A DNA stretch of 32,763 nucleotides, taken from positions 1 to 32,763 of IMG/VR virus record IMGVR_UViG_3300043775_000677. One strand, written 5' to 3'. Positions 19,455-32,559 of this stretch are shown here, piece after piece; positions within the stretch are counted from its first letter, which is position 1, and every line of letters begins with the position of its first letter. Source of the stretch: a virus. A program made the translations under genes and the position numbers. The notes below the pieces were generated by a model that worked only from the letters and a program-made list of their open reading frames with translations, ran no database searches and was not told the origin of the DNA.

Positions 19455-19581
19455 AGAGGAAAAGCAGATGATCTTTGAGGGATGGCAGGATAGAAAGCCA
19501 ATTAAGGTAATTGCACTTGAATTAGGAAGATGCTATGGGACTGTTTATACTGAATTAAAAAAAAGGTATCTAGTAGGATAA
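19432..19581 (+). CDS. 49-residue helix-turn-helix protein
   Basis: MKRRRVTEEEKQMIFEGWQD, then KVIALELGRCYGTVYTELKK. The pattern EEE-helix, K-VIALELGR, GTVY-ELKKRY is a single helix-turn-helix as in small transposase-like or Trp-repressor-like DNA binders. The Arg-rich N-terminus supports DNA binding. It ends just upstream of the promoter at 19595, so it may regulate the RNA and replication genes downstream. Confidence 0.6.
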   Translation: MKRRRVTEEEKQMIFEGWQDRKPIKVIALELGRCYGTVYTELKKRYLVG

Positions 19582-19594
19582 TTAAAAAAAGTTT

Positions 19595-19602
19595 TATATT
19601 TG
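19595..19602 (+). promoter_or_regulatory. Bacteroidota-type -7 box upstream of structured RNA
   Basis: TATATTTG matches TAnnTTTG exactly. No clear TTTG -33 element is present at the usual distance; the upstream region is A-rich. Transcription would be expected to start a few bases downstream, at about 19606-19609, right at the first hairpin of the RNA. Confidence 0.65.
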
Positions 19603-19606
19603 TACA

Positions 19607-19693
19607 TCGAATCATTCCTGTGTGGAAGCGAGAATGATTCCATAGGTTAACTAAACCTGAGCCTGGCAGTCTTCCACCTGTCGGGCTTTTTTA
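19607..19693 (+). ncRNA. Structured leader or small RNA with complementary hairpin loops
   Basis: Three hairpins in about 85 nt. Hairpin 1: GAATCATTC (19609-19617) pairs perfectly with GAATGATTC (19632-19640), 14-nt loop. Hairpin 2: AGGTT (19644-19648) with AACCT (19654-19658). Hairpin 3: terminator stem 19660-19669 with 19678-19687, loop TCTTCCAC, then a T tract. The loop of hairpin 1 holds GTGGAAG (19622-19628) and the loop of hairpin 3 holds CTTCCAC (19671-19677), perfectly complementary, so the loops could kiss. By my rough count such a 7-nt match between two loops of these sizes is about a one in a thousand chance. It lies between a promoter and the replication gene, so it is either a free small RNA or an attenuator controlling replication genes. 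I do not recognise it as a known family. Confidence 0.6.
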
Positions 19694-19697
19694 TTTT
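19660..19697 (+). terminator. Intrinsic terminator immediately before the replication gene
   Basis: AGCCTGGCAG (19660-19669) pairs with CTGTCGGGCT (19678-19687), 10 bp with two G-T pairs, then a T-rich run to 19697. The ATG of the next gene follows at once, so transcripts from the promoter at 19595 must read through it to express that gene. Confidence 0.8.
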
Positions 19698-20387
19698 ATG
19701 CAGGGTAAAAAATCATTTGTTTTGTACACGGATCAAAGGGAAGTTTTCGATGAACTTTCAGATGAAGATGCCGGTAAATTGATCAAGCATATTTTCGCTT
19801 ACGTCAATGATGAAGATCCTATCACAGAGGATAAACTTTTGAAGGTGGCATTTCTTCCAATTAAGACTCAACTAAAAAGAGACCTTAAAATATGGGATGA
19901 AAAGAAAAGCCAAAGGGCAGAGGCAGGTAAAAAAGGAGGTCTAGCAAAATCTAGCAATGCTAAGCAAAGTCTAGCAAATCCTAGCAATGCTACAAATGAT
20001 GTAGCAAATCTACCTGTAAATGTAAATGGTAATGTAAATGTAAATGGTAATGTAAATGATATTTCTTCTATTACTATTTTTACTAATAGGGGTATTCGAG
20101 GTAAAAATTTATTTGAAGAGATGTCTCACATCTATGATTTAAATGATGACCAGGTAAACAAACTATTTCAGGAATGGGAGTTGACTCATGAAGGTCAAAA
20201 ATTTGAAGGTGAAAAGCATTTAAAGAATAGTTTTATCTTGTTTGTAAAAAATAATGCAAGCAGATTTAAGCAGCAAAGAGGTAATACTTACCGGGCAAAA
20301 GAAGAAAAGCCGAAAAGTAAAAACATATTTGCGGATATGTACCAGGAATTATTAAAGGAAGAGGAACTTAAAAAATCAAATCAATGA
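19698..20387 (+). CDS. Replication protein candidate (DUF6291-like)
   Basis: 229 residues. Residues ~1-75 (KKSFVLYTDQREVFDELSDE, AGKLIKHIFAYVNDEDP, VAFLPIKTQLKRDLKIWDE) match the DUF6291 type found in phage and prophage replication regions. A Ser/Asn/Ala-rich linker (about 82-122) contains NVNGNVNVNGNVN, encoded by tandem DNA repeats that look like origin iterons. The C-terminal part (FEEMSHIYDLNDDQVNKLFQ, HLKNSFILFVKNNASRFKQQ) is helical, resembling the partner-binding part of initiator or DnaD-like proteins. The layout resembles lambda O, where the origin lies inside the initiator gene. Coupled to the next gene (ATGA). Initiator role inferred. Confidence 0.65.
   Translation: MQGKKSFVLYTDQREVFDELSDEDAGKLIKHIFAYVNDEDPITEDKLLKVAFLPIKTQLKRDLKIWDEKKSQRAEAGKKGGLAKSSNAKQSLANPSNATNDVANLPVNVNGNVNVNGNVNDISSITIFTNRGIRGKNLFEEMSHIYDLNDDQVNKLFQEWELTHEGQKFEGEKHLKNSFILFVKNNASRFKQQRGNTYRAKEEKPKSKNIFADMYQELLKEEELKKSNQ
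19941..20093 (+). other. Candidate replication origin: iteron-like repeats and AT-rich stretch
   Basis: Inside the replication gene, CTAGCAA occurs at 19941, 19951, 19971 and 19981, with variants at 19961 (TAAGCAA) and 20001 (GTAGCAA); spacing is a strict multiple of 10 bp, one helical turn. Next come two perfect copies of the 18-mer TGTAAATGTAAATGGTAA (20015-20032, 20033-20050) plus half a third, then the AT-rich stretch 20059-20093. Repeats next to an AT-rich unwinding region are the hallmark of phage origins. They also encode a low-complexity linker, so they could be mere protein repeats. Confidence 0.5.
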
Positions 20388-21013
20388 AAGCGACAATTTT
20401 AAAACACCTTCAAAAAATGGAATTTGTCTGTGGTTTGAAGCAATTCAAAGATTACAATCAGGAAGATGCCACAAACCTACTTGAATGTCTTGATAAATTA
20501 TTTACCAGTTATGGATGGATGAATGAAATCAGGGTAGACTACATCCTTCAAGCAGGCATGAGAGGACAATACGGTGACTTCTACCATGTAAATGAAAAGT
20601 CTGTAAGCGGATGGATTAACCAATACTATGCACACCATCAAAGCCAAATAGTTCAGGAAGTACAGGCTATGAATAATGTAGATCGTGAACCTACAAATGA
20701 AGAAATAGAATACTGGATTGAAATAGGTAAGCAGATATTCCGTGATAATTACCAATACGCAAAGGATCACGGCTACTGCAAGGATCTAGCAGAATGGGGT
20801 GCAAATTGGTTTAATAAGTTTCAAGAAAAAGGAATCTTAAAGCCTTGGATGTATCAGGTAGAAGATATTGAGAATGATGTACGAAGGGAATTGAGACTTA
20901 CTACCCGGTACATAGATGAAGTTACTGTAGGCGCAAAGTCAAAAAATAAAATCTGGAAACTATTCATTTTGGAATCTATAAAAGAAAATAGAAACCTAGA
21001 CAAATTGATATGA
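20384..21013 (+). CDS. Replication-region protein, unknown (helicase-loader-like position)
   Basis: 209 residues, largely helical and aromatic: MKATILKHLQKMEFVCGLKQ, then MRGQYGDFYHVNEKSVSGWI and a C-terminal helical part (YIDEVTVGAKSKNKIWKLFI). It directly follows the DUF6291-like gene and is coupled to it, the position of helicase loaders in many phages. I see no Walker motif, so it is not a DnaC-type ATPase; a non-ATPase loader or other replication accessory is possible. Confidence 0.6.
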   Translation: MKATILKHLQKMEFVCGLKQFKDYNQEDATNLLECLDKLFTSYGWMNEIRVDYILQAGMRGQYGDFYHVNEKSVSGWINQYYAHHQSQIVQEVQAMNNVDREPTNEEIEYWIEIGKQIFRDNYQYAKDHGYCKDLAEWGANWFNKFQEKGILKPWMYQVEDIENDVRRELRLTTRYIDEVTVGAKSKNKIWKLFILESIKENRNLDKLI

Positions 21014-30388: not shown

Positions 30389-32559
30389 GCGCAAGGCTAT
30401 TCGTAGAAGGGATCGAAGCGGATACCCTTGGAGATATTGACGTAGACTTCACCTTCTCGGTGGCGGATGTTAGCGACATTGAGAGGCGAAATACTTCCTA
30501 TTCAAAGACTATTATCCTGCCAAACACGGCAAAAAATCAAAGCCTTTTTGGGAATATCTTTGATATCTCTGTGAATAATGACTACTACGAAGAGGATGTC
30601 AATATCGGGGTAAACTTCAACCCTGCTAAACAGGCAAAGGCTCAGATATTCCTTGATAACGTCAAGATATTTGACGGGGTTTTAAGGATGTCTAAGATCA
30701 ATTCTAGGGAAGGGGATATCACTTACGAGGTCAATATGTTCGGAAGGCTTCGGGATATTCTCCATGAGTTGGGGGATAAGACCCTAGCAGAACTAAATTT
30801 TGCGGACTATGACCACGTCTGGAATAGAACCAATATTGAAAATTCATGGGGTAGGACTGAATGGGTAGAAGGTGCCCAGAACTATGTCTACCCTTTGGTA
30901 GATTATGGCTATAGTGTTGACTCAATTACCTACCCTATCAAGAACTTTAAGCCTGCGGTATTTGTCACCGAGATTTTGAAAAGAATCTTTGCCGAGGCTA
31001 ACTTCCAGGTTACTGCTCCTTTCTTCAATTCTTTCTATTTCAGAAAGTTGCTACTGATCACGGCAGAGAAGACCATCACAAGAGAAAGCACTACCCTACT
31101 GAATCAGACTACTAACCTATTTCAGCAAGAGGTCACTACTGATTCAGACTTTATACATTTGCTAGGATTTACATCCGTAGAGACTTCAGGATTCACCATT
31201 ACTAACTCAGGTACTCGATTCACATGGAATAAAGCGCAGCCTTTAAACACAGGATTAAACCTAAATTTTAGGATATTCTTAGAGGCTTTGCAGGGCTACA
31301 CAGATAACGTCTGGACAGTCTCAGTTTTAAAGAATGGATCTGAGGTTTTGTATAGTAGCAAGTTAGTTTCCTTTATTTCTGCAGGTCAAATCTATGCATG
31401 GGATGTCTCAATAAGTGGAGGCATTGACCTTGCTTTGAATGACTACTTTGAAATCAGGCTAACCGGAGAGATTGCAGGATCAGGAACGAATACCCAACTG
31501 CAGACCGAGGTAGTGATTCAGCCTGGAGGAACATTTAAGATAGGCAACACAGTACCCGTGGCAGTAGAACTTGAAGAAGGGGATACTATGAAGATAGGCT
31601 ACACCTTGCCCAAGTCAATGAAGCAGAGGGATTTCTTGAAGTCTATCATTTCAATGTACAACTTGTATGTAACTCAGGACAGGCTTCGTACAAATGTCCT
31701 TGAGATAGTACCCTATAATGAGTTCTATAGAACCTTCAAAGATCAGGCACTTGATTGGAGTGATAAACTAGACCAATCACAGGACATCACTATCACCCCT
31801 CTTTCCGAACTATCGGCAAAGGAATACAGGCTTACATTTGATGATGATTCAGACTACTGGTCTACTTCCTATAAGACCAAATTTAATGAGGCTTATGGGG
31901 AAAGTAGGACTATCATAGACAATGATTTTATACTTGATACCAAGACTGTCAAGGTGGTATTCAGTCCCCCTGTAATGCGGGAGCAGGTAGCAGGTAGAAT
32001 CATGATTCACCTTTACAAGGTAGAGAATGGGGTCAAAGTACCTGACAACTTCAAGCCTCGTATAGCCTATTGGAAGCCACAGGTCGACTGCCCTTCTTGG
32101 AATATAGGATATGCTTCGGGCAATATTGCCTATACTAACTATCCCTATGCAGGTCACCTAGATGATCCTATCGAGCCTCAAACAGATGTGCTGTTTTCCT
32201 TCCCTCGGGAGGTCTATTTCTCGATTGGTCTATACCCTCAAAACAATAACCTTTACACGGAATATTACGAGGGGCTTATCACTTCAATAGGGGACAGGAA
32301 TAGTAGGCTTTTGGAGGGGTATTTTTACCTAACTCCTACCGATATTTCAAACCTAGATTTCAGGACTATTGTGAAGGTAGGTGTTCACTACTTCCAACTT
32401 GAGAAGGTGGACAAATACAACCCAATTGCGAACGGCCTTTCCTACGTTTCCCTATTCAAGATCCTGAGAAATATCAGCCCTGTGGACTATGACTACATCC
32501 TCCTTGAGAATGATGCCTATATGCTACAGGAAAACGGGTCTTCAAGATTTTATATTTAA
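30385..32559 (+). CDS. Large tail hub / baseplate protein
   Basis: 724 residues. The N-terminal 120 residues (RLFVEGIEADTLGDIDVDFT, RRNTSYSKTIILPNTAKNQS) match the beginning of large tail proteins common in Bacteroidota phages, thought to be tail hub or baseplate parts. The middle has long beta-rich stretches and the C-terminal ~100 residues (GDRNSRLLEGYFYLTPTDIS, YNPIANGLSYVSLFKILRNI) are the part repeated at the left end of the window. It precedes the fibre by 5 bases, and the conserved end suggests it contacts the fibre. Start overlaps the previous stop (ATGA). Confidence 0.72.
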   Translation: MSARLFVEGIEADTLGDIDVDFTFSVADVSDIERRNTSYSKTIILPNTAKNQSLFGNIFDISVNNDYYEEDVNIGVNFNPAKQAKAQIFLDNVKIFDGVLRMSKINSREGDITYEVNMFGRLRDILHELGDKTLAELNFADYDHVWNRTNIENSWGRTEWVEGAQNYVYPLVDYGYSVDSITYPIKNFKPAVFVTEILKRIFAEANFQVTAPFFNSFYFRKLLLITAEKTITRESTTLLNQTTNLFQQEVTTDSDFIHLLGFTSVETSGFTITNSGTRFTWNKAQPLNTGLNLNFRIFLEALQGYTDNVWTVSVLKNGSEVLYSSKLVSFISAGQIYAWDVSISGGIDLALNDYFEIRLTGEIAGSGTNTQLQTEVVIQPGGTFKIGNTVPVAVELEEGDTMKIGYTLPKSMKQRDFLKSIISMYNLYVTQDRLRTNVLEIVPYNEFYRTFKDQALDWSDKLDQSQDITITPLSELSAKEYRLTFDDDSDYWSTSYKTKFNEAYGESRTIIDNDFILDTKTVKVVFSPPVMREQVAGRIMIHLYKVENGVKVPDNFKPRIAYWKPQVDCPSWNIGYASGNIAYTNYPYAGHLDDPIEPQTDVLFSFPREVYFSIGLYPQNNNLYTEYYEGLITSIGDRNSRLLEGYFYLTPTDISNLDFRTIVKVGVHYFQLEKVDKYNPIANGLSYVSLFKILRNISPVDYDYILLENDAYMLQENGSSRFYI

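Follow-up and report, generated by a model that had tools for sequence, protein, structure and literature searches.

The question raised by this locus is whether the short stretch of DNA directly in front of a phage replication gene encodes a functional RNA and, if so, what role is served by two of its loops that are exactly complementary to each other. The window analyzed is the whole of a 32,763-base IMG/VR virus record (IMGVR_UViG_3300043775_000677). An earlier note, made from the sequence alone, had described a -7 box, two hairpins, and an intrinsic terminator at this site; the coordinates of all four were confirmed on rereading. The existence of the RNA, its terminator, the pairing of its loops, and its position were established by comparison with related phages. 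The RNA is real, conserved, and widespread, and it very likely governs the entry of polymerase into phage replication genes. The more specific interpretation, in which the phage replication operon has a terminated leader RNA (attenuator) and the loop-pair model is included, could as readily prove wrong as right, and no transcript data are available for it.

All window features described below are on the + strand. The -7 box, TATATTTG (19595-19602), matches the consensus TAnnTTTG (PMC9723704), and a -33-like element (19574-19576), which reads TAG in the window, is located 18 nt 5' of the box, in the known promoter architecture of Bacteroidota. Because the Flavobacterium box of this consensus occupies positions -12 to -5 (PMC9723704), transcription is predicted to start at about 19607, which is 2 nt 5' of stem 1. 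The predicted transcript is about 86 nt long (19607-19692), its start being inferred from the box and its end from the terminator and the T-run. Hairpin 1 (19609-19640) has a predicted 12-layer stem, supported by covariation in homologues, which consists of GAATCATTC/GAATGATTC (19609-19617/19632-19640) and a CTG/CGA extension containing the single C.A mismatch. Its loop core, GTGGAAG (19622-19628), is the exact complement of CTTCCAC (19671-19677), the loop core of the terminator hairpin (19660-19687). The latter, identified by folding and homologue comparison, comprises 10 bp, or 11 bp if G19659.T19688 is counted, and the T-run of the terminator was read directly from the sequence (19687-19692). 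Hairpin 2, AGGTT-AACTA-AACCT (19644-19658; arms at 19644-19648 and 19654-19658), contributes -2.8 kcal/mol alone. The minimum free energy of the window RNA was -33.5 kcal/mol (z = -4.4), and none of 200 dinucleotide shuffles was equally stable. As a separate observation, the C.A mismatch at 19618/19631 is conserved in 33 of 72 homologues and would read G.U on the opposite strand.

The gene that begins behind the terminator is a DUF6291 gene of the replication-initiator type (19698-20387; ATG at 19698; PF19808, E=2e-26), and its relatives in cultured phages are annotated as 'replication protein'. Within it are about five copies of the iteron-like repeat TCTAGCAAAT (19940-19987), a likely replication origin, adjoined by the AT-rich repeat TGTAAATGTAAATGGTAA (20015-20058). 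Initiator genes behind such RNAs contain class-specific repeats of 10-11 bp, 250-400 nt 3' of the RNA (TCTAGCAAAT, GAAACGCAAGT, and ATGCGAACGCA); by inference, these are likely to be the iterons of a lambda-O-like origin and to mark the probable origin of replication. The next gene (20384-21013), which encodes 209 amino acids, served as a marker of the replication module, and the RNA was present at all 58 loci of this gene with enough upstream DNA; a further 15 loci begin too close to the gene to show the RNA region. The 209-aa protein is without a Pfam, PHROG, or isolated-phage match and is highly conserved (74-89% identity) among these metagenomic phages, and a query of genome contigs with the gene returned no match. 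Elsewhere in the window, positions 30-338 (first ORF) and 32000-32559 (end of the last long ORF) encode a nearly identical peptide (TEYYEGLITSIGDRNSRLLEGYFYLTPTDIS...), and the ends of the record resemble imperfect repeats of one another.

Homologues of the window RNA were obtained from relatives of the DUF6291 protein, two pattern scans, and relatives of the 209-aa gene, followed by a covariance-model search. For the DUF6291-protein matches, neither the RNA nor its loops served as a selection criterion. The resulting window family contains 190 copies (one per locus, some loci being overlapping pieces of one contig), 72 of them distinct, with six loop types and with complementary cores in every copy. 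When the cores of the 72 distinct RNAs were placed by stem context, the loop pair was complementary in all 72, compared with 13.7 on average and at most 26 after shuffling of the 3' cores. The loop types (GTGAGAG, GTCGGAG, GTAGGAG, GTGGTAG, GTGGAAG, and GTCGCAG) conform to GTnnnAG paired with CTnnnAC, and loop pair 5 was seen as G-C, U-A, A-U, and C-G. Between the foot of stem 1 and the T-run, the RNAs of loci L026 and L076 differ only at loop pair 5, which is A-U in one and U-A in the other, and at least 16 paired changes of loop type were counted on an RNA tree built without the cores. Since pairing is kept in all 72 distinct homologues through at least 16 paired changes, the complementarity is not due to chance. 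The earlier note's claims that the two loops are perfectly complementary and that such a match is improbable by chance are thus upheld, and the covariation check it had proposed, run on homologues before DUF6291 genes, was passed for stem 1, the terminator stem, and the loop pair, with the strongest covariation in the loop pair.

The promoter is conserved together with the RNA, the -7 box being TATATTTG or TATATTCG in 64 of the 72 distinct homologues and TTG occupying the -33 position in 49 of 71. The spacing of the cores in the window family is 47-52 nt, and G.U pairs on the RNA strand outnumber C.A pairs (112 vs 68). Two individual loci were also recorded. At L004:1750-1830 the window's RNA stands behind another promoter segment, which suggests exchange of the RNA as a cassette, and at L019:2540-2600 the RNA and the N-terminus of DUF6291 are naturally deleted, with the remainder of the gene fused to the upstream gene.

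Comparison of the window RNA with cultured DUF6291 phages at the DNA level gave only chance AT-rich matches. Distant relatives were reached via proteins, a weak covariance-model match, and then an architecture scanner that required a promoter box (TAnnTTTG), then a hairpin, and a terminator with a loop complementary to that of the hairpin. The scanner returned a single match in Olleya phage Harreka_1 (loops GTGGTGG/CCACCAC), one each in phages of Lillamyvirus, Muminvirus, and Hattifnattvirus (GTGAGACG/CGTCTCAC), one in Elemovirus (TGAGAGC/GCTCTCA), and one in phage 11b (CGGGCAGG/CCTGCCCG). In the Cellulophaga phages phi19:3 and phi13:2, the pair CTCTCACAA/TTGTGAGAG was spotted by eye and no clear hairpin 1 was seen. 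The architecture therefore recurs, in strongly diverged form, in cultured phages of Flavobacterium, Olleya, and Cellulophaga. Among 163 further IMG/VR loci, 64 loci with 40 distinct RNAs were matched, all 64 oriented like the initiator gene and none the opposite way; about 0.3 matches were expected by chance for this set. Shuffled sequence gave 14 matches in 95.5 million strand-bases, none scoring 35 or more. The match at L330 has no proper -7 box and was rejected as probably due to chance. Because the scanner itself selects for complementarity, profiles of three subfamilies with the cores masked were used as a control; every full-length match was complementary, and the two exceptions were cut by contig ends. 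In subfamily 2, a count over the named structure found 99.6% of cells paired and 10 pairs changed on both sides, while in the kissing helix 5 of 7 pairs had changed on both sides with 100% of cells paired, and the covariation score was reached by none of 500 shuffles.

In phage FCL-2, a form of the RNA that has a window-like hairpin 2 stands in front of a Phg_2220_C gene (L400:37471-37590); a second FCL-2 match in the whole-phage scan (score 28.5) was weak and was judged to be chance. No such RNA was found in whole-phage scans of 6H, Fpv5, and most of BS-TP2. The RNA was also not found with the DUF6291 genes of Riemerella phage RAP44, a Vibrio phage, and three bacterial genome loci, nor at any of the four bacterial loci returned when genome contigs were queried with the DUF6291 protein of phi19:3. 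Across the class, the cores are 7-10 nt long, their spacing is mostly about 50 nt outside the window family, and the loop helix, taken as a free duplex, contributes -9 to -16 kcal/mol. Hairpin 1 is joined to the terminator by an A/U-rich linker, mostly of 10-22 nt, which is hairpin-free in most families and holds hairpin 2 in the window family; most distant relatives lack hairpin 2. The polarity of the loops varies, loop 1 being purine-rich in the window and pyrimidine-rich in phi19:3 and subfamilies 2 and 3. More than 25 distinct naturally matched loop pairs are known for the class. Several terminators (L216, L236, L318, and L400) have an inner loop of GAGUA/GAAA, then 3-4 bp, then a loop made up of one purine and the core; we take the inner loop to resemble the bulged-G (loop E) motif, which is absent from the window family.

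The tie to the DUF6291 gene drawn in the earlier note requires correction, as several unrelated replication-initiator genes also follow the RNA. The genes behind it encode DUF6291, a DnaD-like helicase loader (phrog_2514), or a Lin1244_N replication initiation protein (phrog_2562), and in three copies a nuclease-like gene follows. The RNA thus precedes three unrelated initiator types and one other gene, with loop type and gene type freely combined. Whatever the gene, its start codon follows the beginning of the T-run at a distance of 7-19 nt (132 of 132 copies); the DUF6291 gene of Harreka_1, Lillamyvirus, and Elemovirus is separated from the RNA by one or two small genes. A second TAnnTTTG between hairpin 1 and the gene was present in only 1 of 72 RNAs. 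As a promoter is normally lacking in the interval from terminator to start codon, transcripts entering the initiator gene must pass the terminator. The choice posed earlier between a stand-alone RNA and an attenuator is therefore probably not an either/or, a short RNA being combined here with an initiator gene that has no promoter of its own behind the terminator.

Under the attenuator reading, the promoter-proximal leader of the replication operon would yield an RNA of about 86 nt, stable and structured throughout, whose 3' end lies just before the initiator gene, and the loops of hairpin 1 and the terminator would pair by 7 bp. Initiator mRNA would be made only by read-through, and the RNA would in this way attenuate both initiator synthesis and transcription into the iteron region. 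Attenuation as such follows from the anatomy, in which no promoter normally separates the terminator from the initiator gene; its regulation is an inference. It is likewise inferred that termination would be the default and that loop pairing would set the frequency of polymerase escape, the direction of the loop effect not having been shown, and that released RNAs may compete for the loops on nascent copies, giving feedback with copy number.

Several objections bear on this model. The terminator appears strong alone, so that the need for loop pairing is not evident, and no alternative antiterminator fold was found. The small genes interposed in Harreka_1, Lillamyvirus, and Elemovirus, and the DUF6291 genes without such an RNA, also count against it. 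The letters of the loops vary freely yet always together; the loops are therefore not read by a conserved outside target, and their partner is the other loop, on the same molecule or on another copy. The earlier note's suggestion that the loops lock one molecule was not established. By rough geometry, a cis kiss would form a coaxial rod of 73-84 Å, for which the window linker (about 40-48 Å with hairpin 2 folded) is too short, making the kiss sterically tight in the window family; once hairpin 2 is melted, the linker is not too short. Mutual exclusion between hairpin 2 and a cis kiss is not claimed, since the estimate is only geometric and FCL-2 combines hairpin 2 with longer linkers. Both a cis lock and trans recognition between copies remain possible uses of the self-complementary loops. 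The idea of loop 1 as a Shine-Dalgarno mimic was rejected because it suits only the GAGGTGA type and no other.

A less likely but possible rival is a self-recognizing RNA whose copies pair with one another, loop 1 of the first with loop 3 of the second, either as a closed dimer or between the small RNA and a nascent leader. Such an RNA would count its own copies and set replication timing, and loop type would correspond to an incompatibility or immunity group toward co-infecting relatives. In its favor, the loop letters turn over yet stay self-complementary, so that only the RNA itself can be the partner; short linkers suffice for a closed dimer, whereas the cis linker of the window falls short with hairpin 2 folded. 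Loop-loop pairing of 7 bp is typical of plasmid copy-control RNAs (for pT181, PMC3753616). On the gene-2 tree, which has 87 tips, at least 40 changes of loop type were also counted (50 with shuffled labels). Against it, the 10-22 nt linkers of diverged relatives are mostly single-stranded and long enough for a cis kiss, the narrow core spacing of the window family suggests a cis constraint, and the turnover may be mosaicism, as initiator type changes 28 times on the same tree (37 with shuffled labels). Frequent exchange of loop type could reflect selection for different compatibility types, but plain mosaicism fits equally well, and it was not counted as proof. A bolder version, also no more than a possibility, is that of a device used by phages throughout the phylum Bacteroidota, in which an RNA recognizing its own copies through freely evolving loop types would be both a copy-number sensor and a compatibility code, the types being exchanged so that co-infecting relatives avoid mutual shut-off.

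A stand-alone phage small RNA that acts in trans on host or phage targets, and is placed near the initiator only through genome compactness, is unlikely. The RNA is fully structured, opens with a hairpin 2 nt behind its predicted start, and closes with a perfect terminator, as stable small RNAs do. However, its only exposed parts are the loops, which are hypervariable but self-complementary and so have no conserved outside target, its own loop words are not enriched elsewhere in the phage DNA analyzed (28 vs 23 and 5 vs 10 expected), and cis attenuation exists in any case, there normally being no promoter behind the terminator. An unregulated insulator, that is, a terminator stabilized by a tertiary contact and shielding the origin and initiator gene from upstream transcription, would suit the strong stem and T-run found where the replication module begins but is very unlikely, as it would require neither a promoter directly in front nor a conserved hairpin 1. 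Hairpins acting as single-stranded DNA at the replication origin would fit the iterons and AT-rich repeats 250-400 nt downstream, but are made extremely unlikely by the conserved promoter and T-run on one strand, the 64 to 0 orientation, and the many G.T stem pairs.

A structured RNA class undetected by Rfam models precedes replication-initiator genes of many Bacteroidota phages. Cultured carriers (Lillamyvirus, Elemovirus, Harreka_1, 11b, phi19:3, and FCL-2) make it immediately testable, and the natural loop pairs already supply compensatory mutants. Should the loops act in trans, lytic phages would possess an RNA-based incompatibility system; should they act in cis, the element would be a terminator controlled by contact with the RNA's own loop. 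Either would offer a handle on the replication timing of phages that depend on the host replisome.

The earlier note could place the RNA in no known family, and this held: none of 4227 Rfam families reached its gathering threshold in the window or in 20 related loci. The best sub-threshold match, to the trpB motif (25.7 bits, gathering threshold 59), and the lower ones were rejected as chance. The literature search found no paper on DUF6291 and none on small RNAs in Flavobacterium phages; the RNA sequencing in PMC8092290 is of the host only, with no phage. The CI RNA of satellite phage P4 (PMC4825925), which confers immunity by premature termination, is likewise a small structured leader RNA of a phage replication operon in which RNA-RNA pairing is tied to termination before the replication genes. 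However, the P4 RNA is processed, and its pairing partners, seqA and seqC, are external to it, whereas both partners here are loops of one RNA, one of them the terminator, with no sequence or Rfam match between the two. The defining property of the P4 RNA, targets outside the RNA, was not met, the complement lying inside the RNA and loop words not being enriched elsewhere. The plasmid copy-control RNAs (pT181 attenuator and ColE1 RNAI/RNAII) share loop-loop pairing and control of a replication gene, in pT181 by attenuation (PMC3753616). Their loop-loop complementarity of about 7 nt is matched here, but within one RNA; pT181 and ColE1 use antisense RNA from the opposite strand, whereas the present loops share strand and transcript, and no antisense -7 box was seen by eye near the window RNA, for which there are no RNA data.

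The IsrK RNA of prophage Gifsy-1 (PMC4825925) is similar in that one promoter serves both a short, terminated transcript and an mRNA that reads through into a phage operon; the parts of PMC4825925 bearing on it report no loop that kisses the terminator, and gene, host, and sequence differ. The packaging RNA of phi29 (PMC6765105) is also a phage RNA with two mutually complementary loops, which pair intermolecularly into a ring for packaging. The window-type RNA differs in being located at the replication module and half as long, and it does not belong to the phi29 packaging RNA family by Rfam match, either in the window or in the 20 related loci. Lysine and purine riboswitches have an intramolecular loop-loop contact in a terminator-bearing leader; the window-type RNA is without their conserved ligand-binding core, and its terminator loop is itself one of the kissing partners. 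To our knowledge, based also on the literature searched, there is no precedent in which a terminator loop pairs with an upstream loop of the same transcript. The features that define attenuators as a kind (a promoter, a structured leader, an intrinsic terminator, and a gene directly behind) are all present, regulation itself being inferred. The RNA family is thus new and undescribed in Rfam, while the kind of regulation is one already known.
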